64,000 nucleotides of DNA from Alphaproteobacteria bacterium (GTDB taxonomy: Bacteria; Pseudomonadota; Alphaproteobacteria; Micavibrionales; UBA2020). The translations under genes were made by a program, and so were the position numbers. This document shows, in pieces, positions 28,301 through 60,433 of this stretch. The notes under the pieces were generated by a model. The model was given only the letters and a program-made list of their open reading frames with translations, was not told the origin of the DNA and ran no database searches. The stretch spans positions 1 through 64,000 of the forward strand of contig SCTB01000186.1 in NCBI GenBank assembly GCA_004297545.1, in the 5' to 3' direction. Within the stretch, counting starts at the first letter, position 1; every line of letters begins with the position of its first letter.

Positions 28301-29701
28301 ATGTCGAAAATCATCACCCGCTTCGCCCCCTCGCCGACCGGCTACCTGCATATCGGTTCGGCGCGCACGGCCCTGTTCAACTGGCTGTTCTCCCGCCATG
28401 TCGGGGGCACGTTCCTGTTGCGCATCGAGGATACCGACCGCGCAAGGTCGACGGAACCAGCGGTGGAAGCAATCTTCAACGGCTTGAAATGGCTGGGGAT
28501 TGACTGGGATGGCGACCCCATCTTCCAGTTCGCGCGCATGAACCGCCACGCCGAAATCGCCCACGAACTGGTCAAGCGCGATAAGGCCTACCTCTGCTAT
28601 ACGACCCCCACCCAGTTGGAAGAGATGCGCAAGGAAATGGGCGCGCATGCCGCCCTTAGTCCCAAATTGAGACAGTTGGCCGAAAAGGGCCCGCCCTCAC
28701 CCGACGCCAAGCCTGTCGTACGGATCAAGGCGCCCGCCACGCAGAACGATGAAATGGTCATCCAGGACGTCGTGCAGGGCGAGGTGAAGGTTCCTTATAC
28801 GCAGCTCGACGATATGATTATGTTGCGTTCCGACGGCACGCCGACCTATATGCTGTCGGTCGTCGTGGACGACCACGATATGGGCATCACGCATATCATC
28901 CGCGGCGACGACCATCTGACGAACGCCTTCCGCCAGCGCATGATTTACGACGCGATGGGCTGGGATGTGCCGTCCTTCTCGCATATTCCGCTGATTCACG
29001 GCCCCGACGGCGCGAAGCTGTCCAAGCGCCACGGCGCGCTTGGCGTCGAGGCCTATCGCGACATGGGCTACCTGCCCGAAGCCATGCGCAACTACCTGCT
29101 GCGCCTCGGCTGGGGCCACGGCGATACGGACATCATCTCCACCGAAGACGCCATCCGCATCTTCGAGCTGGAAGATATCGGCCGTTCCCCCTCGCGCATG
29201 GATTTCGCGAAGCTGGCAAACGTGAACGCGCATTACATGAAGCTATGCCCTGATGACCGCCTCATCGGCCTGCTGATGCCCTTCATCGAAAAAGAACTCG
29301 GCAGCAAGCCAGACGAAGTGGGCCTGCAACGCCTGAAACACGGACTGCACGACCTGAAGGAACGCGCGCAGACCCTGATCGATCTCGCAAAAGTGGGCAT
29401 GTTCTACCTGCACAAGCGCCCCCTGCCGCTCGACGAACAGGCCGCGAAGGTGCTCGACCAGCCCACGCGCACGCTGCTCGGCGAGATGAGGCAGACCCTG
29501 ACAGGCCTTAGCGACTTCAAGCACGACAAAATCGAAACAGCGCTGAAGGAGTTTTCGGCGAAGAAGGACCTGAAGCTGGGTAAGGTGGCCATGCCGCTGC
29601 GCGCGGCCATTACGGGCACGACCAACAGCCCTTCTATCTTCCATGTCGCTGAAATTCTTGGAAAAGACGAGACTCTGGCGCGCCTGAGCGATGTCGCCTG
29701 A
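28301..29701 (+). CDS. gltX: Glutamyl-tRNA synthetase, copy 1
   Basis: 466 residues, class I synthetase. The HIGH motif appears as PSPTGYLHIGSARTA and KMSKS as KLSKRHGALG. Also present are the LRIEDTDRARS stretch and the GDDHLTNAFRQ region. The C-terminal helical anticodon-binding domain is complete. A second gltX lies at 53805. When two occur in one genome, one usually charges tRNA-Glu and the other may misacylate tRNA-Gln for the GatCAB amidotransferase route. Which is which cannot be decided by eye. AAAGG lies 9-10 bases before the ATG. Confidence 0.96.
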   Translation: MSKIITRFAPSPTGYLHIGSARTALFNWLFSRHVGGTFLLRIEDTDRARSTEPAVEAIFNGLKWLGIDWDGDPIFQFARMNRHAEIAHELVKRDKAYLCYTTPTQLEEMRKEMGAHAALSPKLRQLAEKGPPSPDAKPVVRIKAPATQNDEMVIQDVVQGEVKVPYTQLDDMIMLRSDGTPTYMLSVVVDDHDMGITHIIRGDDHLTNAFRQRMIYDAMGWDVPSFSHIPLIHGPDGAKLSKRHGALGVEAYRDMGYLPEAMRNYLLRLGWGHGDTDIISTEDAIRIFELEDIGRSPSRMDFAKLANVNAHYMKLCPDDRLIGLLMPFIEKELGSKPDEVGLQRLKHGLHDLKERAQTLIDLAKVGMFYLHKRPLPLDEQAAKVLDQPTRTLLGEMRQTLTGLSDFKHDKIETALKEFSAKKDLKLGKVAMPLRAAITGTTNSPSIFHVAEILGKDETLARLSDVA

Positions 29702-30749: not shown

Positions 30750-31133
30750 TTACATCGAGGGCGGTGGCGGCATGTCGCTGGACGACGATGCCGGCTGGCG
30801 CGAAATTTCCTTGCCTGCCTTGACGAGCATAATGCCCGTTCCCATGATGCCGCTGAAAATCCGGGAAACGATGCCGAGCCCCAGCAGCCCAAAATAAAAG
30901 AAAATGATATATCTCATGGGTTCGGAGATCTGGATAACGAATTTCTTGCCTTCCGCCTCGCCGGAAAACGCACCGTCCGTCGTTATCTTGTCCTGCAGAA
31001 ACTGAACGAACTTCACCTGTGCGGGGTCGGTGAATATCATGTATATCGTGTTGGAGAGGTACAGCAGCATCGCCAGCGAGATGGCGATTAACACAGTGCC
31101 CAGCAGCATCAACCCTTGCTTAACTCCATCCAT
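30750..31133 (-). CDS. Two-span membrane protein at end of the AAA/VWA cluster
   Basis: 127 residues from ATG at 31133. Spans at about 8-30 (GLMLLGTVLIAISLAMLLYL) and 74-95 (YIIFFYFGLLGLGIVSRIFSG), with an extracytoplasmic loop between them. The C-terminus is Ser/Pro-rich (SSSSDMPPPPSM). No family recognised. It is separated from the gene upstream by a terminator, so it must have its own promoter. Membership of the cluster rests on position and strand. Confidence 0.65.
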   Translation of the reverse strand: MDGVKQGLMLLGTVLIAISLAMLLYLSNTIYMIFTDPAQVKFVQFLQDKITTDGAFSGEAEGKKFVIQISEPMRYIIFFYFGLLGLGIVSRIFSGIMGTGIMLVKAGKEISRQPASSSSDMPPPPSM

Positions 31134-31189
31134 GCGTATTCCCCAAAGCAAATTTCCCTTGTCCGGATGATAGCAAATATCCGCGCATC

Positions 31190-31221
31190 AAAAAAGACCG
31201 CCCCTCTTTCAAGGGACGGTC
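31190..31221 (-). terminator. Rho-independent terminator after the 297-aa gene
   Basis: On the minus strand, GACCG-TCCCT loop AGGGG-CGGTC, followed by TTTTTT (31195-31190). It ends the transcript from 34545/32149. Confidence 0.85.
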
Positions 31222-31255
31222 TCTTATAGCAAGGAAAGTTAGGAGTAGTACTTCG

Positions 31256-32149
31256 TTATGGACCTCCGGGAGCTTTGGGTGCAGGCGTGTTGTGCTGCAC
31301 TGTCGGCGCCGGAGCTTCCTGTTGCACCGGCGGCTTCGCTTCGTCCTTCTTGGCTGCGGCATTAAAATCAGCCGGGACTGCCTTGACATCCAGCAGTTCC
31401 GGATAAGCCTGCAGCCAGGTGAACAGGCGCCAGCGATGGCCATAATACGTGACAATGTACTTGTTGTTCGCGCCGGGCGCGACAGGCGCCACGACCTGGT
31501 CGGGGATAAAGAACGGGTTGCCCTTGTTCTTCCAGCTCCAGAGGTCGTTCATCAGGCTCGGCTTCACGTTGAAGAGAACCGCATCGTTCACGTCGCCGTC
31601 GGGTTTCGTGGTGCCTTTCACGACCCAGACGTTGTTCTTGTGATCGACAACGTGCTGGTCGTTGAGGTACATGACCTCTTCCTTGTGCATCATCGTCACC
31701 ATCCGCGAACCGTCGAAGATCGGCTCCGCGATGGCGCCGATGGTCGCGCGCGCGGGAACGCCGATCATGCCGGGAATGGCGGCCGAAGCCAGGAACGCCG
31801 TCGTCAGGACCATGGCCTTGGCGCGGGTCGGGCGCAGTGTCAATTCGCCCGTTTCCTTGTCCTTCTTGTAGCATATCTTCTTGAACAGCCACTTGTAAGC
31901 GCGAACAGGCCAGGTGCGGCCCAGGAAATGCCAGATGCTCTTGCCGGTTTCCTTGACCAGCGCCATGCCGCCATGGACTTCCTCGGCCGTGTCGTTCAGC
32001 ACCTTGACCTTTTTCAGCGCATCGCCGGCGACGGAACCCTTGATGTCCGTCTTGCTTGCTTCCTGCGCCGTCTGGCCGACCTGATTTTTCAGCCTGCGGG
32101 CGTCCGCAAGCAGCTCGTCGATCGACTTAACCTTGCCTCCGTCTGCCAT
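31256..32149 (-). CDS. Membrane-anchored protein of the AAA/VWA cluster (297 aa)
   Basis: ATG 7 bases after AGGAGG, 20 bases after the stop of the AAA+ gene, so cotranscribed with it. An N-terminal helical cytoplasmic part (about 1-105, with SIDELLADARRLKNQVGQ) leads to one membrane span about 108-135 (AKAMVLTTAFLASAAIPGMI). The second part has aromatic-rich beta sequence (IVTYYGHRWRLFTWLQAYPE) and a Pro/Ala/Lys tail (PAPTVQHNTPAPKAPGGP). No family recognised. It could tether the ATPase complex to the inner membrane, which is inference from operon position only. Confidence 0.65.
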   Translation of the reverse strand: MADGGKVKSIDELLADARRLKNQVGQTAQEASKTDIKGSVAGDALKKVKVLNDTAEEVHGGMALVKETGKSIWHFLGRTWPVRAYKWLFKKICYKKDKETGELTLRPTRAKAMVLTTAFLASAAIPGMIGVPARATIGAIAEPIFDGSRMVTMMHKEEVMYLNDQHVVDHKNNVWVVKGTTKPDGDVNDAVLFNVKPSLMNDLWSWKNKGNPFFIPDQVVAPVAPGANNKYIVTYYGHRWRLFTWLQAYPELLDVKAVPADFNAAAKKDEAKPPVQQEAPAPTVQHNTPAPKAPGGP

Positions 32150-32169
32150 CTTTATCTCCTCCTAAAGCA

Positions 32170-34545
32170 TCACTTGGATGCGTTAAATACCGTGCCGACC
32201 GGTTTGGGCTTCGCCGGCGCGTTTTCATTCGCGGGAGCCTTCTTCTCGACGCCTTCCGAAACGAATGTCGTCGTCGCCACCTTCGCGTCCTTGTCGTAGG
32301 TGACTTTCAGCGTGCCTGCCTCGCCGGGATGACGCAGGATCGTATCCGAAATATCCGAGGTGATGTTATTCTCGATATATTTCTGGATGGAACGCGCGCC
32401 GCCGCGGGGGATGTACTGGTCCTGGCACATCTTTTCCTTGTCGGCCTTGTCCATCGAAACGGACAGCCCCTGTTCGGCGATCCAGCTGTTGATCTCCTTG
32501 AAAGTCTTGTCGGCGATCATCATGATCTCCGGCTGGCCCAGGCGGTTGAAGCAGAAGATACCCGTGAAACGGTTCAGGAACTCGGGGCGATAGCCGCTGC
32601 CGCCGTTTTCCTTGTCCGGGTTCCAGAGGACCGCAAGAGCGCGCTTCTTGGCTTCGTCGAAACTTATTGTTTCGTCGAGGAAGTGTTCGGCGCCGATGTT
32701 GGAAGTCATGATGTTGATGGAGTTCGCGAAAGACGCCGTCAGGCCGCGGCGGTCGGTCAGCATGCCCTCGTCCAGGATCTGGAGGAAGAGGTCGTAGACG
32801 TCCTTGTGGCCTTTTTCGATCTCGTCGAACACGTTCACGCAATAGGGCTGGCGCCGCATCGCGTTGGTGAGGATACCGCCGTCCGCATAGCCTTCGTAGC
32901 CCGGCGGCGCGCCGATAAGCGTCGAGACCGAGTGCTTTTCCTGGTATTCGGACATGTTGTAGACTTTGAGCGACGATTCGTCGCCGAACAGCGCTTCGGC
33001 AAGCGCCTTCGCGAGCTCGGTCTTGCCGACGCCCGAAGGGCCCAGGAACAGGAACGAGCCGATGGGCTTGTTCGCCTTCTTGAGGCCGGTACGGCCGCGG
33101 CGCACGGATTTCGCGACGGCCTTGACGGGCTCGTCCTGGCCGAAGACGCGCTTCTTGAGCGTCTCGTCGAGGGCGAGCAGTTTGGTGGTTTCATCCTGAC
33201 CGAGGCGGCTGACAGGAACGCCGGACAGGCGGCTGAATTCCTGCAGGATGTGCTCGTTCTTCAGCTCGAGACCTTCGTTGATTTCGGCGGTCAGCGCGTC
33301 AAACTTCGCCCTGTTGTCGCGGGCCAGCTTGTCCCACTGGGCGCGTTCTTCGCTGAGCTGCTGCTCGACGGTGCCCTTGAAGCCGCTCTTGGAGAGCTTG
33401 AACTGCAGGCCCTTGGTCGTAACGGGAGCCTCTGATTCCTTCTGGGCGGCCTGGTCTTTCTCAAGCTGCTTGGCCGCTTCGATCTGCTTGATGCGCTCTT
33501 CCTCGATCTTGCTGTCGAGAATGCGGATTTCTTCTTCCGCCTTGCGCTGGTCGGCGTAAAGCGCGCGCAGCTTTTTCTGGCGGTCTTCCCAGCTTGCGTT
33601 GATTTCGACAATCTCCTGCTCCGCCTCGATTTTCATGGTCTGGAGCTCGCCAGCCGATTTTCCTTTCAGGTCTTCCGGCGGCTTTCCGCCAAGCGCGCTG
33701 GCGATACCCTGCAGTTGCGCTTCAACCGCATCGCGCTCGCGCGGGTGTGTATGCGCCGCATGGCGCAACTCGGTCAGGGCGCCTTCCAGCAGCATGAAAG
33801 CGCGCTTGGGCTGCGCGCTGTCGAGTTCGCGGATGAAGTACTTGCAGGTCAGGTCGATGGCGGTCTTCCTGGCATCGTCGCTGATTTTGATCTTGTGATG
33901 GTCTTCCAGCTCTTTGCACCCGGCATCCACCATCTGGACAAGCGCCGGTCGCGTCGGCTCCTTGATTTCCATGAGGGTGAAGATTTCTTTCATGTCCGAA
34001 TGGCATTTCAGAGCCTCGGCAAGATCCGTGTCGCGGATTTCGAATATTGCCTGGAAGGCGCTGTTCATGCGCACTTCGCGCATGAGGGAGTTGATGACGT
34101 TGGTGGCGCCTGTGTTGCGGCAGCCATCCAGAAAGTCCTTGAAGTCATCGATGACGAGAACGGTGTCAGGGGCGCGCGACAGCGTCGCGATCGCCTTCTG
34201 GAAACCTTCGTTCACCTTTGTCGCGTCACCCGATGCGAAGAGCGCGTCGGTGTCGAGCCAGTAAAAACGCTTGCCCACGATGTCGGAGGGAGAATTCAGG
34301 TCTTCCTTGCTGGCCTGCAAACCCATGCTGACGGACGAAACGCCGACCCCCGGGAGACCGACGAGCAGGACGTTGTTGCTGTCCTTGCGCATCAGGATGT
34401 TGGAGACCTGTTTCATTTCGGTTTCGCGGCCGATGGCCTTGAAGCCGGGTTTTTTCGCGAGGTAGTCGGAGCCGCGAATGAGGTAGTCGCTGTTGGGGCC
34501 GAGGTTTGCGGCCGGTGCGGGCTTCTGGTTGTTGTCGTCTGCCAT
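32170..34545 (-). CDS. Clp/Hsp100-like double AAA+ ATPase with inactive first site
   Basis: 791 residues. No Clp N-domain. AAA-1 (about 37-270) has the Walker A position GLPGVGVSS (63-71), where the essential Lys is Val, and Walker B VLVIDDF with Asp in place of Glu, so it probably does not hydrolyse ATP. A long coiled coil (about 310-450) takes the place of the ClpB M-domain. AAA-2 starts RVFGQDEPVKAVAKSVRRGR and has GPSGVGKTEL (about 501), FDEIEK (about 571), sensor MTSNIG, arginine-finger region GYRPEFLNRF and a ClpB-type C-domain. The tail is Ala/Pro/Lys-rich. It likely remodels or disassembles a partner complex, perhaps the neighbouring coiled-coil or VWA protein. Confidence 0.85.
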   Translation of the reverse strand: MADDNNQKPAPAANLGPNSDYLIRGSDYLAKKPGFKAIGRETEMKQVSNILMRKDSNNVLLVGLPGVGVSSVSMGLQASKEDLNSPSDIVGKRFYWLDTDALFASGDATKVNEGFQKAIATLSRAPDTVLVIDDFKDFLDGCRNTGATNVINSLMREVRMNSAFQAIFEIRDTDLAEALKCHSDMKEIFTLMEIKEPTRPALVQMVDAGCKELEDHHKIKISDDARKTAIDLTCKYFIRELDSAQPKRAFMLLEGALTELRHAAHTHPRERDAVEAQLQGIASALGGKPPEDLKGKSAGELQTMKIEAEQEIVEINASWEDRQKKLRALYADQRKAEEEIRILDSKIEEERIKQIEAAKQLEKDQAAQKESEAPVTTKGLQFKLSKSGFKGTVEQQLSEERAQWDKLARDNRAKFDALTAEINEGLELKNEHILQEFSRLSGVPVSRLGQDETTKLLALDETLKKRVFGQDEPVKAVAKSVRRGRTGLKKANKPIGSFLFLGPSGVGKTELAKALAEALFGDESSLKVYNMSEYQEKHSVSTLIGAPPGYEGYADGGILTNAMRRQPYCVNVFDEIEKGHKDVYDLFLQILDEGMLTDRRGLTASFANSINIMTSNIGAEHFLDETISFDEAKKRALAVLWNPDKENGGSGYRPEFLNRFTGIFCFNRLGQPEIMMIADKTFKEINSWIAEQGLSVSMDKADKEKMCQDQYIPRGGARSIQKYIENNITSDISDTILRHPGEAGTLKVTYDKDAKVATTTFVSEGVEKKAPANENAPAKPKPVGTVFNASK

Positions 34546-34626
34546 TGTCGTAATCCGTCCCTCTGTTTACACGTCGCCCGTTGAGGCAGACCGTGTTTTG
34601 AATTCGGTGTCTCTTATCCGTCCCAC

Positions 34627-34658
34627 CCGGGCGCAGCCTTCAAAGTGACTGCGCCCGG
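34627..34658 (-). other. Strong hairpin between coiled-coil and AAA+ genes
   Basis: CCGGGCGCAG (34627-34636) pairs perfectly with CTGCGCCCGG (34649-34658). The stem can extend by three more pairs past a bulge. No T-run follows in the minus direction, so it looks like an attenuator or mRNA-stabilising stem that lets the 580-residue protein be made in excess over the ATPase. Confidence 0.65.
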
Positions 34659-34671
34659 TGTGACGTTATGC

Positions 34672-36414
34672 TTACTTGTTGAACTGTGCGAAGGGATCCG
34701 CGAGCTTGCCTTCTTTCTTGGCGGCAGGCTTGGGCGCATCTTCCTTCTTGTTCTCGTTCGAAGGCGCAGTACCATCGGCTGCACCAACTTCGGCGTTGAC
34801 GGCGTAAGCGTCCTTGAGGTCAGCAGTCGTCTTCTTGATGCTTTCCTGCAGGTTGCTGAGGCCTTGCTTGATCTCCTGCACGCCGTCGCGGGTAATCTGC
34901 GAGGAAGTACGGAGAACTTCGCCGTAGGCAGCCAGGTCGTCGACAGCCTTGTTCAGGCCGATCGCCGCGTCCTTGATGCCCATCGCCGTGCGGATGGACT
35001 CTTTCATCGCAACCGCGTTGGTCTTGTCAGTCATGGTGCCGATCGACTGCTTCGCAGCTTCCGCCGATTCGTTCAGCGCAGCTGCCGAGACAGCTTGCAG
35101 GACGGTCGACAGACGATCCGCGACGCCGGCGATACCCGACGAGTGCAGTTCGCGCGTTTTGGAAACCTGCTCGCGGTTGGCATCCTTCATCTGCTTGATG
35201 CGGACGGCCTGCGAGGACAGGTCCGAGTAGGTTTTCATCGTATCAACAGTCGAAGAGTCCATCGCGGTGATGAATTCCTCGGCAGCCTGCTTCTTGTTCT
35301 CACGCTGCATCTGCTGGATCGGGGTTTCCCCTCCCTCTTTCGGGGGCATGTAGCTTTCGCGGACTTTCTGGTTGCCGTCTGAGGCGTCCTTGGAAGCTTC
35401 GGAAACGATCGCGTAGATGCTCTGCATGCCGTTGTTGACGTTCGACAGGCCTTCGATCTGGCCGGTCATGCCGTCAAGGTGACCCAGGACGGAACCGACG
35501 CGCTCATCGCAGTTATTGACGAAGTCCTGCGCGGCGTTGACAAGGGCTTTCTGACGCGTCTTGTGCTCTTCGGAGGTCAGGTCGAGGAGCTCGCGCAGCT
35601 TGGCCTTTTGTTCCGCGAACTGGGCGTATTGCGTTTCGCGCGCCTTGTTCGGGTCCTTGAGGTCTTCCAGTTCCTTCGCCGTATTCTCGACGGTCGTGCC
35701 GATGCCGGCCAGTTCATCGTTTTTCGCGGCGATGTCGCGGATAGCCTGGTCTTTCAGGCCGCCGAAGCCCAGCCACTTGCGGTTCTTGCGGCTGTTTTGC
35801 AGCACAGCAAGGTCGCCCTTGGCGGTATCAGCCTGGCGCTGCAGGTCCTGCAGGTTGCGCTCATGCTCGGCGACTTTCTTCTTGCGCTCTTCCTCGGCTG
35901 CCTGGTCTTCCTTGATCTCCTTGAAGACGCCAAGGACGGTTTCGCCGCCCTGCAGGCGAAGCTGGTAGACTGCTTCGATGATGTCGGTGAGCGGGGTCAT
36001 ACGCTTGTCGAACTCCAGGACGCCGCTGTTCAGCTGCTCGATGACGCCTTGCAGTTCGGAGAACGCGCCGGTGTCGGTCAGCTTGATGATTTCCTGCGCG
36101 AGACGCTTGCGTTCATTCTGCAGGTATTCCTTGAAGGTCACGAATTCCTTCAGGCGGGTCAGGCATTCTTCCTTCAGGTCTGGATCGAAGGTGAGCGCCT
36201 TGGCGACTTCGGCTTTCTTCTGCTCGGCATCAAGCTTCTCGTTGAAGATGATCTTGTAGAAGGTGTTCGTGCCGATATCGGAGTACTTGTCGTCCGTCTT
36301 GACTTGCGGCGTCGTTGCGGTGTTGACGGTAGTGTTCGTCTTCCGCTTCGTTGCTGCTTGTGCCTGCTCGGCTAGTTCCTTTGCTTTCTGCAGGGAGGTT
36401 GCTGTGTCTGCCAT
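34672..36414 (-). CDS. Large coiled-coil protein, distantly TelA-like (580 aa)
   Basis: Almost entirely helical and charged. No signal and no membrane span, though a short non-helical turn RKWLGFGGLKDQ sits near residue 215. Long heptad stretches cover about 120-330. The C-terminal half (QAVRIKQMKDANREQVSKT, then YGEVLRTSSQITRDG, then VQEIKQGLSNLQESIKK) recalls the helical layout of TelA/KlaA toxic-anion-resistance proteins, but identity is too low to assign. Tail Lys/Ala/Pro-rich, ending DPFAQFNK. AAGGAG lies 9 bases before the ATG. It is likely the structural or regulatory partner of the AAA+ protein. Confidence 0.7.
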   Translation of the reverse strand: MADTATSLQKAKELAEQAQAATKRKTNTTVNTATTPQVKTDDKYSDIGTNTFYKIIFNEKLDAEQKKAEVAKALTFDPDLKEECLTRLKEFVTFKEYLQNERKRLAQEIIKLTDTGAFSELQGVIEQLNSGVLEFDKRMTPLTDIIEAVYQLRLQGGETVLGVFKEIKEDQAAEEERKKKVAEHERNLQDLQRQADTAKGDLAVLQNSRKNRKWLGFGGLKDQAIRDIAAKNDELAGIGTTVENTAKELEDLKDPNKARETQYAQFAEQKAKLRELLDLTSEEHKTRQKALVNAAQDFVNNCDERVGSVLGHLDGMTGQIEGLSNVNNGMQSIYAIVSEASKDASDGNQKVRESYMPPKEGGETPIQQMQRENKKQAAEEFITAMDSSTVDTMKTYSDLSSQAVRIKQMKDANREQVSKTRELHSSGIAGVADRLSTVLQAVSAAALNESAEAAKQSIGTMTDKTNAVAMKESIRTAMGIKDAAIGLNKAVDDLAAYGEVLRTSSQITRDGVQEIKQGLSNLQESIKKTTADLKDAYAVNAEVGAADGTAPSNENKKEDAPKPAAKKEGKLADPFAQFNK

Positions 36415-36931
36415 CTGTTAGTCTCCTTCTTCTTTCCTTGTCAGTTCGTTTCTTGGTTGTAGTTTTCGTTTTGGTTTATGTTAATAGATTTTATTTGACG
36501 TTCATTTTCTGTAAATGAATTATGGCTAAGCTATACGGAAAATATATTTTGAAAGCAAGCGATTTCGAGGTGCGCACCGCAGCAAAAAATCTTCTGCTAA
36601 GTTTATGCAAAATGAAAGTATAATTATGCAAATTAATTAGGCGCTTTTTAAGATTTTCAAATAAAAAGGAGCCGAACTTTTTTTCAAAGTTTTCGGCCCC
36701 TGCTGTATTTACTGCTGATTTCATCAGCGTAAAGATTATGTAAATCACTAAACCTCTCAGCTTCCGTTCTGGACGCTAATTCACTGTAGCAGGTACTAAC
36801 GTACCGTCAAATTTTTCCCAAAAAACGCAGGGATTTCATGAAGTTAACAGCGTCAAGATTCTGCGCCACAATTCATAGTTATCGAATCGGAATTGATTCT
36901 CTGAAGCCTTTCGTGCGATCGCGCGAAAGAA
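36415..36931. other. AT-rich intergenic region with terminator and promoter area
   Basis: 517 bases, clearly more AT-rich than its surroundings. It holds the terminator of the VWA gene and must hold the promoter of the 580-residue protein. An 85-codon minus-strand frame (36491-36748) is present but has no ribosome site. It may contain an unrecognised regulatory RNA. Confidence 0.5.
36658..36700 (-). terminator. Rho-independent terminator after the VWA gene
   Basis: Minus strand GGGGCCGAA ... TTCGGCTCC with one G-U pair, followed by TTTTTATTT. It lies 230 bases after the VWA stop and isolates the next gene. Confidence 0.75.
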
Positions 36932-37924
36932 TTATTGACGCGGTCCGAAGATGATCCAGCGGCGGCGGCCCTTGCCTTCAGCCGGCGCAGCGGGCCCCGC
37001 TTTCGGCGTTTCAGGCGCGGACGCAGCGACAGCTGTTTCAACAATTACCGCAGGTGCTTCCGGTTTTTTTACTTCAGCGACCACGGGGGCATCCGGTTTC
37101 GTTTCGGTTGCAACAGGTGCTGCAGTTTTTGTTTCTTCCACGACAACTTTCGGCGCTTCAGGCGCGACGCCTGCGAAGCGGCCGGTCAGCACGGACATCA
37201 CGGCGCCATGAAGCTCTTCATGCTTCGCGACGTTGTAGACGCCTGATTTCTGCGCATCGGTCGGCGGCGTGAGTTTCGCGGCGAGATCCTTGATATTGCC
37301 TTCGCCGGAGCCAAAGCTGATGAAATCGACGGTGACGCGCGGGTTCATCTGCATGGCCGTGTTCAGCATCTGGGCGGTGTGATCGATGTTATCCGACACG
37401 CTGCCCGTGGAAACGACGATGTAGTGCTTTTTGCGCTCGCCCTGCTTGTCAGGCGTATTGGCAATCATGATGTCCTTTGCAACCGGCAGGAGTTCCTTGC
37501 CGTTTGTTTTGGTCTTCTCGCGCGCTTTTTCCATGCGATCGGAATCGCTGAGATTGACCCATTTTGTATTATTGCCCGCCTCCCAGAGGCCTGCGGAAAC
37601 TGCTGTATCATGACCACCGGTGGCAGCGTGCAGGGAACGCGCGATATCGATAGCAGCGCCTATGGGGCTTGCAAAACCTTCGCCCATGCCTTCCGACTTG
37701 TTGATCAGGAACACGATGTCATGTCCTTTCAGCGCGGATTTGTCGACGGTCGGAATGAATTCATCGAGCACCTTGTTCAGCTCGGCGCGTATCTCCGCTG
37801 ATTTCGCCTCGAAAGCGGCGCTCTGCAGTTTTGCGGCGGCTGCTTTGGAACGCGCTGCGAGATCGTTGAACTCGGCTGCCAGGGCTTCCAGTTTCTCGGA
37901 CATTGGCTTGGGCGCATCGGACAT
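36932..37924 (-). CDS. VWA-domain protein with degenerate metal site
   Basis: 330 residues. A helical N-terminus (about 1-65), then a von Willebrand A fold: DIVFLINKSEGMGEG (69-83) at the MIDAS position. The usual D-x-S-x-S reads N-K-S-E-G, and later KHYIVVSTGSVSDN stands where T-D-G is expected. Metal-dependent adhesion is therefore doubtful. VTVDFISFGSGEGNIKDLA closes the fold. A long Val/Ala/Pro/Lys/Glu linker (about 250-315) ends in GRRRWIIFGPRQ. No signal peptide, so cytoplasmic. VWA proteins often work with AAA+ ATPases (for example MoxR/RavA), and one is encoded nearby. Confidence 0.75.
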   Translation of the reverse strand: MSDAPKPMSEKLEALAAEFNDLAARSKAAAAKLQSAAFEAKSAEIRAELNKVLDEFIPTVDKSALKGHDIVFLINKSEGMGEGFASPIGAAIDIARSLHAATGGHDTAVSAGLWEAGNNTKWVNLSDSDRMEKAREKTKTNGKELLPVAKDIMIANTPDKQGERKKHYIVVSTGSVSDNIDHTAQMLNTAMQMNPRVTVDFISFGSGEGNIKDLAAKLTPPTDAQKSGVYNVAKHEELHGAVMSVLTGRFAGVAPEAPKVVVEETKTAAPVATETKPDAPVVAEVKKPEAPAVIVETAVAASAPETPKAGPAAPAEGKGRRRWIIFGPRQ

Positions 37925-38016
37925 GGGTATTTCCTTTCGGGTGATTGAATTTTCATATACCCCTATATGCCGGTTGTCAACAGGGTAAAAGATTTGAAAA
38001 AAGTGAACTTAGATCA

Positions 38017-38502
38017 TTATTGTCGCGGTTTGATGATCCGCAGGGGTTTCAGGGGATCGACCTCAACTCCTTCATGACAAGCGCGCGCAAGATCGGAAGC
38101 TTCCTTCTGCTGGACGGCCTTCGCTGCGGCATCGGCCTTTACCTTTATGTAGGCCTCTTTTTTGATCAGGATGGCCGGCTTTTCGTCGAAGAACATCTTC
38201 GCCCAGCTCCGCTCGTCCACACCGTCCTGAACGCCGCGGTTATACTCGAGCGTGCCGGGATATTTTAGCTTTATCTCCCCCTCCCACAGCACGTCTTTCC
38301 GGGCGGCATCGTTGAATACCCTCAGAAAGTCGCCGTCTTCAAGGCAATTGAGCCCGTCGTAGGACCACTGCTTCCCGTCCGGCGAGATATGCTTCTCGTC
38401 CTGCAACGACCAAATAACGCCTTCCGTGCCCGTCTCGCAAAAGGCGTGGGCGACCCCCCTGATAGGATCTTCCGGTGGTGAACTTGGGATTTCTTCGGAC
38501 AT
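38017..38502 (-). CDS. Unknown acidic protein (161 aa)
   Basis: Soluble. The central part, EGVIWSLQDEKHI, then YDGLNCLEDGDFLRVFND, then VLWEGEIKLKYPG, looks like a small beta-sandwich that I have seen in other hypothetical proteins but cannot name. WAKMFFDEKPAILIKKEAYI follows, then a charged helix. It is 92 bases upstream of the VWA gene on the same strand and may be its operon leader. No terminator is seen between them. Confidence 0.6.
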   Translation of the reverse strand: MSEEIPSSPPEDPIRGVAHAFCETGTEGVIWSLQDEKHISPDGKQWSYDGLNCLEDGDFLRVFNDAARKDVLWEGEIKLKYPGTLEYNRGVQDGVDERSWAKMFFDEKPAILIKKEAYIKVKADAAAKAVQQKEASDLARACHEGVEVDPLKPLRIIKPRQ

Positions 38503-39743: not shown

Positions 39744-40781
39744 ATGGCCGACGAGAAAGACAGCATTCTTTATAAAGAAAGCAAACCGTTCAAGGAAGGC
39801 ACCCTGGATGTCGGCGACGGCCATGTCATCGCCTATCAGGAATACGGCAACAAGGATGGCATTTCCATCGTGTACCTGCACGGCGGCCCCGGCGCGGGAT
39901 GCGGCCCTTACTTCCACCGCTTTTTCGATCCGGAAGCCTTCCACATCATTACCTACGACCAGCGCGCTGCGCCCCTGTCGTCGCCCGAGGCCTTCAAGGC
40001 CGACGGCAACCCCATCCATCTTATCGAGAACAACACGCCGGCCATCCTTGTCGAGGACAACGAAAAACTGCGCCAGCACCTCGGCATCGACAAATGGCAT
40101 CTGTTCGGCGGCTCCTGGGGCTCCACCCTTGCCCTGATGTATGCCGAAAAATATCCGGAGCGCACCGAAAGCATGACCCTGCGCGGCGTCTTCATGATGC
40201 GCGAGCAGGAACTGGACTGGTACCTGAACAAGATGGGCACGTTCTTTCCCGAGGTTTACAAGGAATTCATCGAATTCCTGAAGCCCGAAGAACGCGATAA
40301 CGTCATCGAAGCCTATTACCAGCGGCTCACCGATCCCGACCCCGCCGTGCACCTGCCGGCCGCCGCCGCCTGGGTGCGGTTCGAGAACGGCTGCGCCTTC
40401 CTTGAAATCCCTCCCGATGACATTCGCAACGCGCCCCCGGTGCAGGCCCTGCCCTTCGCGCTGATTGAAGTTTACTTCATGCGCAACTTCATGCCGGACG
40501 ACAGCATCATGCAGAATGTCGGAAAGATTAAGGACATTCCCACCGCCATCGTCCAGGGCCGTCATGACAACGTCTGCCCGCCGATGTCAGCCTTCGACCT
40601 GTCGGAGAATCTGACCAACTGCAGCCTTGAATTCACGCAGTCCGGCCATTCGGGCAGCATGCCGGAGACGATGAAACGGCTTGTCGCCGCGACCGACCGT
40701 ATCCGCGACACGGGTTCGCCTGTCCTGAAAAAACAGGCTGTGCCCAATCCCGCTTCCACCCCCAAGCCGAAGGTGCCCTGA
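39744..40781 (+). CDS. Alpha/beta hydrolase, prolyl-iminopeptidase-like, copy 1
   Basis: 345 residues. Oxyanion HGGPGAGCG, nucleophile S124 in FGGSWGSTLA, acid Asp in VQGRHDNVCP, His in QSGHSG: a full catalytic triad. In true prolyl iminopeptidases the stretch after strand 4 reads DQRG-x-G-x-S. Here it reads DQRAAPLSS, unlike copy 2, so substrate preference may differ. It may remove N-terminal Pro or cleave another small amide or ester. It overlaps copy 2 by one base (TGATG), so the two are translationally coupled. The C-terminal about 25 residues are Pro/Lys-rich. Confidence 0.87.
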   Translation: MADEKDSILYKESKPFKEGTLDVGDGHVIAYQEYGNKDGISIVYLHGGPGAGCGPYFHRFFDPEAFHIITYDQRAAPLSSPEAFKADGNPIHLIENNTPAILVEDNEKLRQHLGIDKWHLFGGSWGSTLALMYAEKYPERTESMTLRGVFMMREQELDWYLNKMGTFFPEVYKEFIEFLKPEERDNVIEAYYQRLTDPDPAVHLPAAAAWVRFENGCAFLEIPPDDIRNAPPVQALPFALIEVYFMRNFMPDDSIMQNVGKIKDIPTAIVQGRHDNVCPPMSAFDLSENLTNCSLEFTQSGHSGSMPETMKRLVAATDRIRDTGSPVLKKQAVPNPASTPKPKVP

Positions 40782-41824
40782 TGGCCGACGCACAGCCCAG
40801 CAAAGACCCGAAAGACGAATTTCTTTACCCCGCCAGCGAAAAAAACGGCGAAGGCACGCTGAAGCTGGATGGCATCCATACGATGCATTACGAAGAATTC
40901 GGCAATCCGCAGGGCATTCCGATCGTCTACCTACACGGCGGCCCGGGCGCGGGACATGGTGACCACTTCCACCGCTATTTCGACCCGAAAGTCTTCCGCG
41001 TCATCATTTACGATCAGCGCGGCGCGGGGCTTTCGACGCCGGCGGCGGAAACGCGCGACAATACGCCTGACCTGCTGGTCGAAGACCTGCACAAGCTGAA
41101 GAACCACCTCGGCATCGACAAGTGGCATGTTTATGGAGGCTCCTGGGGCTCGACGCTGGCGCTGCTGTACGGCGAAGAACACCCGGAAAGCACGCTCAGC
41201 CTGACGCTGCGCGGCATCTTCCTGATGCGCAAGATGGACATCGAGATGTTCTATGACGCAGCCGAGCTGTTCCGCCCCGAAGAGGCGAAGCGCATTGCGG
41301 AATTCCTGCCCGAGAATGAACGCAGCGACTTCTTTGAAAATTTCTACAAGCGCCTGATGAGCGACGACCCGGCCATCAGCTTCCCGGCGGCGCAGGCCTG
41401 GGCGCGTTTCGAAAACGTCTGCTGCTATCTGCAGCAACCGCCCGACGGGGATCCGCGCATTGTCGAAAGCAATCAGGACGCTCTGAACGTGGCGCGGATC
41501 GAGGCGCATTACTTCCGCAACTGCCTCTTTGACCCCGACGATCGCATCCTGAAGAACATCGACCGTATCCGCCATATCCCGACAATCATGGTTCAGGGCC
41601 TTTACGACATCGTCTGCCCGCCGCAGATCGCCTATGACCTGAAACAGGCTTTCCCCGAGGCGCACCTGCAGCTGACCGTTTCAGGGCATGCCGCGATCGA
41701 ACCCGAGATCATGAAAGCGCTGGTCGCAGCTACAAACCGCATCCGCGAAACCGGATCACCCCTTCCGAAAGCGGAAGCGCCCGGCCCTGCAGCGGCGTTC
41801 AAGGCACAGCAGCCGAAACCCTGA
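40781..41824 (+). CDS. Alpha/beta hydrolase, prolyl-iminopeptidase-like, copy 2
   Basis: 347 residues, clear paralogue of the preceding gene. HGGPGAGHG, intact DQRGAGLST, nucleophile S121 in YGGSWGSTLA, acid in VQGLYDIVCP and His in VSGHAAIEP. This copy keeps the canonical RG-x-G motif. Translational coupling through the TGATG overlap suggests the two are made together, possibly as a heteromer. It ends with an Ala/Pro/Lys tail similar to copy 1. The methyltransferase gene is convergent downstream. Confidence 0.88.
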   Translation: MADAQPSKDPKDEFLYPASEKNGEGTLKLDGIHTMHYEEFGNPQGIPIVYLHGGPGAGHGDHFHRYFDPKVFRVIIYDQRGAGLSTPAAETRDNTPDLLVEDLHKLKNHLGIDKWHVYGGSWGSTLALLYGEEHPESTLSLTLRGIFLMRKMDIEMFYDAAELFRPEEAKRIAEFLPENERSDFFENFYKRLMSDDPAISFPAAQAWARFENVCCYLQQPPDGDPRIVESNQDALNVARIEAHYFRNCLFDPDDRILKNIDRIRHIPTIMVQGLYDIVCPPQIAYDLKQAFPEAHLQLTVSGHAAIEPEIMKALVAATNRIRETGSPLPKAEAPGPAAAFKAQQPKP

Positions 41825-46037: not shown

Positions 46038-48440
46038 TCAATGATGAAGGACGTCTTCTTCGGCGCCGTCGGTCCTTGTCGTAACTGCGGCGGGCTTCTC
46101 TTCCACAGGCTCCGGCATTTTCGTGAGCGCGTGGGAGAGCACTTCCGTGATCGTCGAGACCGGCACGATTTCAAGCCCCTTCTTAACATTGTCCGGTATC
46201 TCCGTGAGATCCTTGACGTTGTCTTTCGGGATAAGAACCTTCGTAATGCCGCCGCGCAGGGCCGCCAGAAGCTTCTCCTTCAGGCCACCGATCGGCAGCG
46301 CCTGGCCCAGCAGGTCGACCTCGCCGGTCATTGCGACGTTCTTGCGCACAGCGATGCCCGTCAGGCAGGAGACAATGGAAGTTACCATAGCAAGGCCGGC
46401 GGACGGTCCGTCTTTCGGCGTCGCGCCTTCCGGAACGTGGACGTGAACGCCTGTCTGGTCCAGCACTTCCTGCCGGATACCCAGCGCGTGACTGCGCGAT
46501 TTGACGAGCATTTCGGCGACCTGGATCGACTCTTTCATCACGTCGCCCAGCTTGCCGGTCATGGAAACCTTGCCCTTGCCGCCCGGGAAGGTGACGGATT
46601 CAATCTGCAGCAGTTCGCCGCCGACTTCCGTCCAGGCAAGACCTGTCACGCAGCCGATGCGGTCCTGTTCTTCCGCCATGCCGAAGCGATAGCGCGGGAC
46701 GCCAGCGTATTTCTCGATGTTCTTCGGCGTGATGCTGATGGACGTCTTCTTGCCCATCATGATGTCCTTGATCGCCTTGCGGGCGAGGTTGGACAGTTCG
46801 CGCTCAAGATTGCGAACGCCGGCTTCCCGCGTGTAAACGCGAATGAGATGGCGTATCGCCGTATCGGAAATCGTGAACTCGTTCTTTTTCAGGCCGTTGG
46901 CCTCCAGCACCTTGCTGAGCAGGTGGCGCTTGGCGATTTCAACCTTCTCGTCTTCCGTATAGCCGGAGATGCGGATGATCTCCATGCGATCGAGCAGCGG
47001 GCGCGGCAGGTCGAGCGTGTTCGCCGTGCAGATGAACATCACGTCGGACAGGTCGTAATCGACTTCGAGGTAATGGTCGTTGAAGGTGTGGTTCTGCTCG
47101 GGGTCGAGGACTTCGAGCAGCGCCGCCGCGGGATCGCCGCGCCAGTCGTGCGCCAGCTTGTCCACCTCGTCGAGGAGGAACAGGGGGTTCGAGGTCTTGG
47201 CCTTTTTCATGCCCTGGATGATGCGTCCCGGCATGGAGCCGATATAGGTGCGGCGGTGGCCGCGGATCTCGGATTCATCCCGCACGCCGCCCAGCGACAT
47301 GCGCACGAAGTTGCGGTTGGTCGCCTTGGCGACGGATTTGCCGAGCGACGTTTTACCGACGCCGGGCGGACCGACGAGGCACAGGATGGGCCCCTTCACC
47401 TTGTTGGCGCGGTGCTGCACGGCAAGGTATTCGAGAATGCGTTCTTTCACCTTCTCAAGGCCGTAATGGTCTCGTTCGAGGATGTCCTCGGCATACTTCA
47501 GGTCCTTGAGCACTTTCGAGCGCTTGTTCCACGGCACGCCCAGCATCCAGTCGAGATAGTTTCGCACGACGGTGGCTTCGGCCGACATCGGGCTCATCTG
47601 GCGCAGTTTCTTCAATTCGGCATGGGCCTTCGTCTTGGCCTCCTTGGTCATGCGCGTTTTCTTGATTTTCTGCTCAATCTCGGTGAGCTCGTCGACGCCG
47701 TCCTCGCCCTCGTTGAGCTCTTTCTGGATGGCCTTCATCTGCTCGTTGAGGTAATACTCGCGCTGGGTCTTCTCCATCTGGCGCTTGACGCGGCCGCGAA
47801 TACGCTTTTCGACCTCGAGCACGCTTATCTCGCCTTCCATGAAAGCGAATATCTGCTCCAGCCGCTCGGCCACGCCGGCGATCTCAAGCAACTTCTGGCG
47901 ATCGGGAATCTTGAGCGACAGGTGCGAGGCGACGGTGTCCGCCAGCTTGTGCGGGTTATCGATCTGCCCGATCGAGGTGATAATCTCGGGCGGGATTTTC
48001 TTGTTCAGCTTCACGTACTGGTCGAACTGCGACACGCAGGCGCGCACGAGGCCTTCGATGGCGTCGCCGGTCACGGGACGTTCCTCGATAATTTCGGCCA
48101 CGGCTTCGAAATATTCGGCCTTGTCGGTATAAGACTTGATACTGGCGCGCTTCTGGCCCTCGACCAGCACCTTCACCGTGCCGTCCGGCAGCTTCAGGAG
48201 CTGCAGCACCGTGCCCAGCGTGCCGATGTTGTAAAGGTCCCCCGCCCCGGGATCGTCCTGCTGCGCGGATTTCTGGGTCACCAGAAGAACCTGCCGGTTA
48301 TCCTGCATGGCGCTTTCGAGCGCCTTCACGGACTTCTCCCTGCCCACGAACAGGGGGACGATCATATGGGGGAAAACGACGATGTCTCTTAAAGGAAGAA
48401 CGGGGTGTTTTGTACCGGCAGCCACTGCTTCTTCTGTCAT
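46038..48440 (-). CDS. lon: Lon ATP-dependent protease
   Basis: 800 residues. N-terminal LON substrate domain (HPVLPLRDIVVFPHMIVPLF) and coiled coil (QREYYLNEQMKAIQKELN). The AAA+ module has GPPGVGKTSLGKSVA and NPLFLLDEVDKL. The protease domain has nucleophile S680 in KDGPSAGLAM and Lys in IGGLKEKLLAALRGG. It degrades misfolded and regulatory proteins. It is preceded by a terminator (48651-48683), so it has its own promoter in the 48441-48650 region. No clear heat-shock sigma site is visible to me. Confidence 0.97.
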   Translation of the reverse strand: MTEEAVAAGTKHPVLPLRDIVVFPHMIVPLFVGREKSVKALESAMQDNRQVLLVTQKSAQQDDPGAGDLYNIGTLGTVLQLLKLPDGTVKVLVEGQKRASIKSYTDKAEYFEAVAEIIEERPVTGDAIEGLVRACVSQFDQYVKLNKKIPPEIITSIGQIDNPHKLADTVASHLSLKIPDRQKLLEIAGVAERLEQIFAFMEGEISVLEVEKRIRGRVKRQMEKTQREYYLNEQMKAIQKELNEGEDGVDELTEIEQKIKKTRMTKEAKTKAHAELKKLRQMSPMSAEATVVRNYLDWMLGVPWNKRSKVLKDLKYAEDILERDHYGLEKVKERILEYLAVQHRANKVKGPILCLVGPPGVGKTSLGKSVAKATNRNFVRMSLGGVRDESEIRGHRRTYIGSMPGRIIQGMKKAKTSNPLFLLDEVDKLAHDWRGDPAAALLEVLDPEQNHTFNDHYLEVDYDLSDVMFICTANTLDLPRPLLDRMEIIRISGYTEDEKVEIAKRHLLSKVLEANGLKKNEFTISDTAIRHLIRVYTREAGVRNLERELSNLARKAIKDIMMGKKTSISITPKNIEKYAGVPRYRFGMAEEQDRIGCVTGLAWTEVGGELLQIESVTFPGGKGKVSMTGKLGDVMKESIQVAEMLVKSRSHALGIRQEVLDQTGVHVHVPEGATPKDGPSAGLAMVTSIVSCLTGIAVRKNVAMTGEVDLLGQALPIGGLKEKLLAALRGGITKVLIPKDNVKDLTEIPDNVKKGLEIVPVSTITEVLSHALTKMPEPVEEKPAAVTTRTDGAEEDVLHH

Positions 48441-48650
48441 TTTGTACCCTCTGTTGTCCCTAGATTATGCCTTGGAATGGTTTATTTTTAGCGAATAGGG
48501 CATTTTTTGAGGCTGTTTTGACGATTTTGGCCCCTTGTCGGCCCTTATAACACATGAACTAGACAAATTTTAAGCATTTACAAGCCTGCTGCGGGTAAAG
48601 TTAACCGAAATTTATATTTTACAGATTAACATCCCCCGACGGGCTGAATC

Positions 48651-48683
48651 AGAAAAGGCACCCCGACAGGGGGCGCCTTTTCT
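48651..48683. terminator. Terminator between clpP and lon
   Basis: AGAAAAGGC-ACCCC GACA GGGGG-C-GCCTTTTCT. Perfect stem with T-rich exit on both strands. It ends clpP transcription, 22 bases after the stop. Confidence 0.88.
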
Positions 48684-48704
48684 GTATTCTAATCCCTTAT
48701 AGGA

Positions 48705-49340
48705 TCAGGCGGCTTTCTTCTCTTCGCCACCGAAGGGCTGCTTTTCGACAATCAGGTCGATAAGGCCGAAGGCCTTGGCTTCTTCGGGCGACATGAAGCG
48801 GTCGCGCTCAAGGGCTTCCTCGATCTGGTTGATCTTCTTGCCCGTGTGCTTGACGTAGATTTCGTTGAGGCGCTTGCGCAGGCTCAGGATTTCCTTGGCC
48901 TGGATCTCGATGTCTGTCGCCTGCCCCTGTGCGCCGCCGGAAGGCTGGTGCACCATGATGCGGGAATTGGGCAGGCTGTAGCGCTTGCCCGCAGCCCCTG
49001 CGCAGAGCAGCAGGGAGCCCATGGAGCAGGCCTGGCCGATGCAGACGGTAGCCACCGGGGGCTTGATATACTGCATCGTATCGTACATGGCGAGGCCGGA
49101 GGTCACAACGCCGCCCGGCGAGTTGATATAAAGGTAAATGTCCTTCTTCGGGTTCTCGGATTCGAGGAACAGGAGCTGGGCGCAGACCAGGCTGGATACC
49201 GCATCGTTAACGGGCCCCGAGAGGAAGATGATGCGCTCCTTCAGGAGGCGCGAGTAGATGTCGTAGGAACGTTCGCCGCGGGCCGTCTGCTCGATGACCA
49301 TCGGCACCAGAAAGCTGGCATGTTCAAAATTGTTCGTCAT
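48705..49340 (-). CDS. clpP: ClpP protease subunit
   Basis: 211 residues, the normal length. Catalytic triad: S106 ([10 protein letters not shown]), H131 ([11 protein letters not shown]) and D180 ([13 protein letters not shown]). [20 protein letters not shown] supports the oxyanion region. It forms the tetradecameric chamber fed by ClpX or ClpA. clpX, usually directly downstream, is not here: the space to lon is 264 bases and holds only a terminator. GGGGAG precedes the ATG. A divergent, longer paralogue lies immediately upstream. Confidence 0.97.
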
Positions 49341-49384
49341 AGGGCTCCCCTTGCTTGTTTATCTTTATATAGCCCGTTTCGGGC

Positions 49385-49424
49385 AAAAGAAAAAGAGATG
49401 GCCGGCGGTTAGACCGGCCATCTC
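49385..49424 (-). terminator. Terminator after the ClpP-like gene
   Basis: GAGATGGCCGG (49395-49405) and CCGGCCATCTC (49414-49424), perfect 11-bp stem. In the minus direction CTCTTTTTCTTTT follows. Confidence 0.88.
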
Positions 49425-49461
49425 ATATTAGCAAGGATAGTTAAAGGACTGGAAGCCTTAT

Positions 49462-50589
49462 TTAGAGCATCGAGGGGCCGTCAACGACCTTGGCAGGCGC
49501 CGTAGCGGGCTGCTTGTTGTCGTTGGTTGCGCCCTTGGCGGCTGCCGCCGCCTTTGCGTCTTCCATAGCGATTTTGGACGGCGTCCAGAATTCCCGGAAT
49601 TGCGCCAGCGCGGTCACCAGCTCGGGGCGGATGCGGAAGCTGTCCTCATCCACGTTGCTGTTGCTGCTGTTGATCATTTCCATGATGCCAGCGGCGGTCT
49701 TCGGCACTTTTGCTTCGCGCTTCGCGTCGTTATCGGCGCGGTGCGAGAATTCTTCATGCAGAGTCCGCTTCGCGGTGCCCATAATGATCTCGTCGATGAC
49801 GCCCATTTTCTTGGCCTGTTCGGCGGAGAGCCAGGTGTTGCGCTCCAGCACGATGTCCCAGAACTTGTGGTTGAGGCCGGTGTGGCGGACGTAGATGTCC
49901 GTCAAATCTTCGCGCAGGCGCTTCGTGAACTCGGCATCGATCTCGATGTCGGTCTGTTGCGTGCTGCGTTCATTGCCCGACAGCGGCTGGTGGATCATGT
50001 ACTTGGAGTTGCGCGTCATCTTGCGCTCGTCGCCTGCGACCAGCAGGATCGAGCCCATCGACGCCTGCATGCCATAGCCGATGGTGGTGATTTTCGGCTT
50101 GATGGAACGCATCGTGTCGTAGATCGCAAGGCCGGCCAGAACGGAACCGCCCGGCGAGTTCACGTGAACCGTGATATCGTCATCCGGACGTCCCGAAGCT
50201 TCGGATTTCAGGTACAGGAAAGACGCGCAGGCGACGGACGCCATGGCATCGTCAACCTGGCCTTCCAGCAGAACCACGCGCTGCTTCATAAGCAGCGAGA
50301 AGAGGTCGTAAGAGCGCGTCATCCCGCCTTCGGTTTCGGTCACGGTCGGAACCATGCGGCCTTCAGCCGTCGGTTTCGCTTCCATGTCGCGTTGCGCCTT
50401 CACAGCGGAAGCCGTGATTTTGCGCAGAGCAGAGAGGCCTGCATCATCCATGTATGCGTCGACGGATTTGCCTTCGCTATGGGCCTTCATCATCTGTTCG
50501 AAATATTTCTGGCCTTGCTCGCTGATGTACTGGAGCTTTCCTGCGTCAACGCTGTCGCGGATACGTGAAAAATCTTCTTCTTTTGCCAT
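49462..50589 (-). CDS. Extended ClpP paralogue with Asn in the triad
   Basis: 375 residues, about 165 more than ClpP. A helical N-terminal extension (about 1-90) precedes the ClpP fold (about 95-275), and a C-terminal extension (about 275-375) ends in an Ala/Pro-rich tail. Nucleophile S177 (GMQASMGSILL) and H200 (SKYMIHQPLSG) are kept. The catalytic Asp position is N251 (VLERNTWLSAEQA). A Ser-His-Asn triad is known in Listeria ClpP1, which is weak alone and works in a mixed ring. It may pair with the ClpP encoded next. It has its own terminator, and 117 bases separate it from tig. Confidence 0.88.
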   Translation of the reverse strand: MAKEEDFSRIRDSVDAGKLQYISEQGQKYFEQMMKAHSEGKSVDAYMDDAGLSALRKITASAVKAQRDMEAKPTAEGRMVPTVTETEGGMTRSYDLFSLLMKQRVVLLEGQVDDAMASVACASFLYLKSEASGRPDDDITVHVNSPGGSVLAGLAIYDTMRSIKPKITTIGYGMQASMGSILLVAGDERKMTRNSKYMIHQPLSGNERSTQQTDIEIDAEFTKRLREDLTDIYVRHTGLNHKFWDIVLERNTWLSAEQAKKMGVIDEIIMGTAKRTLHEEFSHRADNDAKREAKVPKTAAGIMEMINSSNSNVDEDSFRIRPELVTALAQFREFWTPSKIAMEDAKAAAAAKGATNDNKQPATAPAKVVDGPSML

Positions 50590-50706
50590 TTTAGTCGTGC
50601 CTTTCCTTGCTAAAGTTTTGGTACCAGTTTTTGTGCTTCACCCAGTCTACATATCCCGCCCGTTTTTTGTTGAGGCGTATTTTGGTAAAAGTGATGCCAG
50701 GGATTA

Positions 50707-52182: not shown

Positions 52183-52251
52183 GGTCAAAACTTTCTTTTC
52201 TCTTTCCGTTATTTCCGCCGTCTTAAGCCGGTTAATCTTGTCTGTTCTTCA

Positions 52252-53649: not shown

Positions 53650-53804
53650 ATTAAGCCAGCGCCTACGCCAACCCCGCCAGCATTCCCCCGCCCCTCTTTC
53701 GTGCGCTCGGCATATTTTTGCTTATTTATTTCCCTAATATCTACTTGGCTTTTCCGGCATCTATAGTATATTGGCTATTCTGTAATTTAAGGGACTTAGA
53801 AGAA

Positions 53805-59016: not shown

Positions 59017-59036
59017 GACGCCCCTCCCCTAAAATA

Positions 59037-59645: not shown

Positions 59646-59747
59646 GGCGCGTGCTCCATTACTGGCTGATGCGGGCATGCTATAGCCTTATGGCAATAAG
59701 TCAATAGTTTGACTATCCTGTAACTAAGGCGGAGCGTTTTATGACAA

Positions 59748-60374: not shown

Positions 60375-60433
60375 ATGCATGCTCCGTTGGTTGCCGGGCA
60401 TGTTAAGGACTTATGACATCAAGTCAATAGGCA

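Follow-up and report, generated by a model that had tools for sequence, protein, structure and literature searches.

A conserved three-gene unit linking an HSP100 ATPase, degenerate in its first ring, to a predicted helical protein and a predicted membrane protein in Micavibrionales and a jumbo phage

A stretch of 64,000 nucleotides from contig SCTB01000186.1 of an alphaproteobacterium of the order Micavibrionales (assembly GCA_004297545.1; hereafter referred to as the window) carries on its minus strand a conserved unit of three genes, which encode a 580-residue protein (cc580), an HSP100 ATPase and a protein designated p297, and whose order is kept between genomes. The source assembly comprises 3.86 Mb in 197 contigs (completeness 99%, contamination 7.9%), and close relatives are metagenome-assembled genomes of Micavibrio-type alphaproteobacteria. 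In a first-pass annotation, six minus-strand genes at positions 30,750 to 38,502 had been described as one unrecognised locus, possibly a membrane-tethered remodelling machine that could not be named. All six open reading frames (ORFs) were found at the positions indicated there, but the proposed check on co-occurrence in other genomes upheld the three-gene core and not the full set. The genes are conserved together only in part, which leaves weak grounds for one locus of six genes, and a six-gene unit was rejected, because the remaining genes, encoding a VWA-like protein and proteins of 133 and 161 residues, are not conserved with the core and have a lower codon adaptation. The description of an unnamed membrane-tethered machine nonetheless suits the trimmed core, given its co-occurrence, its active D2 ring, its predicted membrane partner and its two components without a named family. 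No description of the trio was found in the open-access literature searched, in which it appears to be undescribed as a system.

An order-wide profile search covering 142 genomes identified cc580 in 25 genomes, and in a 26th (G096) that was recovered through its p297. The latter had at first been taken for a case of p297 without cc580, an interpretation rejected once a diverged but complete module was found. Both proteins were present in 21 genomes, cc580 without p297 in five, p297 without cc580 in none, and neither in 116 (Fisher P=1e-20, a guide value, since related genomes are not independent). The cc580 and ATPase genes were adjacent in every fetched relative with a sufficiently long contig, save one decayed copy, and p297 lay downstream of this pair in all lineages but one genus, g3, in which cc580 and the ATPase are kept and p297 is lacking. 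Beyond the order, the module was found in a single genus of another alphaproteobacterial order (complete in G478; in G885, cc580 lies near a contig end). Among 398 sampled genomes of the phylum, no match was convincing and one was marginal (E=8e-4 over 97 profile positions), a plasmid search yielded no cc580, and the sole match in IMG/VR was the Agrobacterium jumbo phage Atu_ph07.

This phage encodes homologs of all three core proteins in the same gene order: AUZ95252 for cc580 (36% identity over 88%, E=1e-76), AUZ95251 (gp492, “ClpB”) for the ATPase (37% identity, E=4e-129) and AUZ95247 for p297 (31% identity, E=1e-7). The phage and bacterial modules also share a hairpin after the first gene, whereas the phage ATPase (661 aa) has a shorter middle domain than its bacterial counterparts and 1.65 kb of unrelated small ORFs separates its gene from that of p297. 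The trees for cc580 and the ATPase were concordant in their main supported groups, and the phage branched beside G478 in both (support 83/92 and 100/100). Together with the phage copy, this concordance suggests that the three genes are transferred and inherited jointly. The published analysis of Atu_ph07 interpreted gp492 as a ClpB stress chaperone (PMC6102473), and phage papers name the ATPase ClpB or ClpA with its partners unmentioned (PMC6102473, PMC7824862).

Irregular copies were also observed. One genome (G112; L152 1694-3091) retains neither ATPase nor p297, and its cc580 gene is shortened, so that it apparently holds a decaying copy of the module. In another (G139; L060 6508-8831), two ORFs take the place of a single ATPase gene, owing to either an assembly frameshift or pseudogene formation, and the closest relative (G005; L151 7297-7944) carries a partial, 215-aa paralog of p297 away from the module.

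Judged from its sequence, the ATPase is an unusual HSP100 variant. Its two AAA modules, with family-level similarity, place it in class I of the HSP100/Clp proteins (TIGR03346 ClpB, E=1e-117), and its best relatives in PDB were ClpC (E=2e-102) and ClpB. With these proteins (PDB 6em8, 1qvr) it shares two rings, a middle domain and an intact D2 motor with its pore loop, but it differs from them in its fixed partners, in lacking an N-domain in our alignments, and in the state of D1. In this module, the Walker A lysine is replaced, the Walker B glutamate is an aspartate (IDE to IDD), both arginine-finger residues are gone (ERRF to KEIF; MKEIF), and so is the KYRG pore loop. D2, by contrast, retains GPSGVGKTEL, FDEIEK, the GYEGY pore loop, RPEFLNR and the GAR sensor, so the alignment agrees with the earlier claim of a Clp-like ATPase with one dead site. 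The score against the ClpB equivalog model was 394.8 bits, for a cut-off of 1232 bits. The ClpP-docking [LIV]GF loop was not seen in the D2 family alignment, in which the site reads TISF, TLTF or SMSY. Without an N-domain and this loop, substrate choice would have to come from a partner and degradation is unlikely. Four diverged members of the family retain the D1 lysine, and the members lacking it form a single group (100/100). ATP binding by D1 therefore probably disappeared a single time, ahead of the split between phage and bacterial lineages, with the root assumed to lie among the lysine-keeping members.

The two partners belong to no family in Pfam or NCBIfam, as is also the case for the 133-aa and 161-aa proteins. 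Scans with PHROGs and PADLOC added nothing credible, and neither did PDB sequence searches with the cc580 and p297 profiles. An AlphaFold2 (AF2) model of cc580, of low to moderate confidence (mean predicted local distance difference test score, pLDDT, of 67), is almost wholly helical, consisting of a chain of long helices, in line with the large coiled-coil protein first proposed; fold searches returned generic coiled-coil matches only. The flexible C-terminal tail is not conserved, but in most lineages, as in the phage, it has an aromatic end (PFAQF, PFNF, PSPDFF, FGF). The p297 protein consists of a charged N-terminal region, one predicted transmembrane (TM) segment and a conserved C-terminal domain; this genus lacks the cysteines that most lineages have in that domain. 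By the usual charge rule, if it applies here, the N-terminal region of p297 would be cytosolic and the C-terminal domain periplasmic.

The core genes are also set apart by signals of expression. In a ranking of 59 window genes by codon similarity to the ribosomal-protein cluster, they occupied ranks 8, 9 and 11, with the VWA, 133-aa and 161-aa genes at ranks 36, 49 and 53. A strong hairpin that lacks a U-run lies just past the cc580 stop codon in 17 of 21 loci, including that of the phage, and its sequence varies freely. Its predicted strength (median of -31 kcal/mol for the module versus -16.7 kcal/mol in 66 size-matched control gaps) differs with P=2e-5, a value for related loci that are not independent. 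This hairpin is a probable 3' stabiliser or partial terminator that would set cc580 above the ATPase. Codon usage, the hairpin and the terminator after p297 together suggest that cc580 is made in excess over the ATPase, and codon usage and hairpin would be consistent with a scaffold present in quantity and with a complex that is in use.

The earlier annotation had also compared the locus with TelA/TerY stress loci, and this analogy survives in part, as a remote profile similarity. The C-terminal 200 or so residues of cc580 aligned with local TelA sets at a profile-profile probability of 84-90%, with reversed or block-shuffled TelA giving 4.4% or less and other proteins of the same loci less than 1%. 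The signal is not established, because it disappears against canonical TelA alone (1.4%), and none of the cc580 members scanned matched PF05816, the family of toxic anion resistance proteins to which TelA belongs (threshold 30 bits). TelA is likewise helical, but it differs from cc580 in its operon partners and through this lack of a direct family match; these genomes carry their true TelA genes at other sites, beside other genes. The relation is thus a weak and unproven lead; cc580 is not classed as TelA, nor the locus as Ter. The TelA genes of this genus (L090 120-4692, L092 6061-10518) are grouped with genes for two unnamed proteins of about 450-515 aa, and this cluster of three is conserved.

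The reading that we favour, tentatively and with rather less than even confidence, is that a membrane-tethered HSP100 with a single active ring remodels an abundant helical scaffold, cc580. The make-up and order of the unit, its co-inheritance, the state of D1 and D2, the phage copy and the conserved hairpin are observed; the topology, the excess of cc580, its contact with the ATPase, its role as substrate and any part in envelope change or phage exclusion are inferred. The p297 protein would sit in the inner membrane and present its N-terminal region to the cytosol, anchoring an elongated helical assembly of cc580, produced in excess and probably membrane-associated. In the ATPase hexamer, D2 would be the sole motor, and the role of the D1 ring would be structural. 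The ATPase would contact cc580 directly, docking on it probably through the C-terminal aromatic peptide, and would thread it, so that the assembly is taken apart or reset in the manner of ClpV or of NSF/Vps4. ClpV is an HSP100 motor dedicated to one helical assembly, the sheath of the type VI secretion system (T6SS), and NSF and Vps4 act on helical bundles. The likeness to ClpV (TssH) is of the works-like kind only: TIGR03345 aligns with 353 bits, for a cut-off of 885, but the present ATPase has no N-domain, and inspection by eye of the neighbourhoods fetched, without a genome-wide search, revealed no sheath or other T6SS genes. A more specific version, shared by Micavibrionales and a jumbo phage, would have an HSP100 with a dead ring dedicated to taking apart a sub-membrane scaffold, divergent but TelA-like, that serves to reshape or guard the envelope. 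It would define a new class of membrane-anchored machines combining an AAA+ motor with a helical scaffold, but we consider it doubtful.

Several observations weigh against this remodelling mechanism. With p297 missing from g3, one lineage evidently manages without the membrane part; the aromatic tail motif is likewise missing from g3 and from the basal clades. The topology of p297 has hydropathy as its single basis and the structure model of this protein was unusable (pLDDT 44), whereas that of cc580 was of low confidence and gave no useful fold match. In the clade comprising L024, L026, L057 and L058, the gap is too short for the hairpin.

The strongest rival, which we judge rather unlikely, is that cc580 is an adaptor that replaces the missing N-domain and gathers other proteins at the membrane for D2, while the periplasmic domain of p297 senses the envelope. 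Such a role would be consistent with the absence of an N-domain, the strict pairing of cc580 with the ATPase and the conservation of the p297 C-terminal domain with its cysteines in most lineages, but codon adaptation and the hairpin suggest that cc580 is at least as abundant as the ATPase, which would be unusual for an adaptor, codon usage being a proxy for amount.

It is less probable still that the module forms a Ter/TelA-like sub-membrane barrier in phage conflicts, protecting bacteria from infection and the jumbo phage from its rivals. TelA and the VWA protein TerF have been proposed to form sub-membrane structures blocking phage entry, and jumbo phages to use Ter systems against superinfection (PMC7824862); the patchy distribution, the jumbo phage copy and the remote TelA-like signal would fit such a role. 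Against it, no Ter partner genes were recognised near the module, no known anti-phage system was detected with PADLOC, whose models matched generic AAA+ regions only, and homology to TelA is unproven, true TelA genes lying elsewhere among other neighbours.

A six-gene system with the VWA protein as an essential cochaperone, in the style of MoxR-VWA pairs (RavA-ViaA type), is very improbable. An AAA+ gene does lie near a VWA gene in this genus, the latter being directly upstream of cc580 on the same strand in six of six congeners. Yet the VWA gene lies elsewhere in g3, beside other genes, and is absent from the other core-bearing lineages and from the phage; a terminator-like hairpin separates it from the core here, its codon adaptation is lower, and the ATPase is an HSP100 rather than a MoxR protein, so the MoxR-VWA analogy drawn at first does not hold. 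The gene is probably a genus-level neighbour, and not part of the core. The loss of its metal site was confirmed, DxSxS being absent from the MIDAS position and replaced by residues of the NKSEG/NKSKD type in all members, but the VWA assignment is itself weak (Pfam E=0.004, under the cut-off). Least probable of all is an ordinary duplicate of a ClpB-type disaggregase with unrelated neighbours, which the HSP100 sequence family and the published reading of gp492 (PMC6102473) would favour, but which is contradicted by the dead D1, a score of 395 of the 1232 bits required and, in bacteria and phage alike, a strict association with two further families.

The other two genes of the original set are bystanders: the 133-aa gene has no relative at other module loci, and the 161-aa gene lies near the module in one close relative only. 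Two membrane-associated proteins had been announced and are indeed predicted, p297 with one TM segment and the 133-aa protein with two, but the latter lies outside the conserved unit. Ala/Pro/Lys-rich C-terminal tails, put forward as a trait of the locus, were rejected as a signature: they are frequent among unrelated window genes, and five of the eight most Ala/Pro/Lys-rich tails of the window fall outside the locus. The AT-rich gap upstream of cc580 (36488-36810) contains several promoter-like matches, and its terminator-like hairpin could end a short RNA; a terminator or small RNA at this site was rejected because the hairpin is unconserved past the closest relative. An Rfam search returned nothing. 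The features of the locus are listed in Table 1.

Table 1. Coordinates of the features of the locus within the window.
Feature	Position	Strand	Basis
Intrinsic terminator downstream of p297, at the end of the core operon	31192..31225	-	Hairpin and U-run
p297, predicted single-pass membrane protein (TM at about residues 113-131)	31256..32149	-	TM prediction, family alignment, co-occurrence
Predicted TM segment of p297	31757..31813	-	Hydropathy 1.8; same position in most homologs
HSP100 (ClpB/ClpC-like) ATPase without N-domain; degenerate D1, middle domain, active D2	32170..34545	-	ORF, NCBIfam/PDB comparison, alignments
Intact D2 Walker A (GPSGVGKTE)	33016..33042	-	Alignment
Dead D1 Walker A (GLPGVGVSS)	34333..34359	-	Alignment
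Strong mRNA hairpin just past the cc580 stop codon, without U-run	34619..34665	-	Folding z=-5.1
cc580, 580-aa helical protein, first core gene; flexible C-terminal tail ending in DPFAQFNK	34672..36414	-	ORF, AF2
Candidate sigma-70 promoter upstream of cc580 (TTTACA-16-TAAAAT)	36488..36515	-	Consensus match alone
Terminator-like hairpin between the VWA gene and the core operon	36661..36700	-	Sequence; window and L018 only
VWA-like protein, metal site lost	36932..37924	-	Weak Pfam match, alignment

Elsewhere in the window, consecutive minus-strand genes at 46038-52188 encode a trigger-factor-like protein, ClpP-like proteins of 375 aa (PF00574, E=1e-52; long N- and C-terminal extensions) and 211 aa, and a Lon-like protein; clpX is not in this cluster, but on another contig (C42). 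Two glutamyl-tRNA synthetase-like genes (28301-29701 and 53718-55142) both encode RFAPSPTG near the start, and two similar alpha/beta-hydrolase (prolyl aminopeptidase-like) genes lie in tandem at 39744-41824, with Ala/Pro/Lys-rich tails on both products. Three successive minus-strand genes (58384-60401), whose products of about 210 aa resemble one another at the N-terminus, form a local tandem family, the one scanned member of which had no Pfam match.

Through their linkage to the ATPase, two unnamed protein families, cc580 and p297, gain a partner of known activity, and the phage “ClpB stress chaperone” becomes one part of a conserved three-gene unit. The possible link to TelA would open the molecular role of TelA proteins, long unclear, to experimental tests. 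If the proposed mechanism holds, the module would add a bacterial case of an AAA+ motor that serves one particular helical assembly linked to the membrane.

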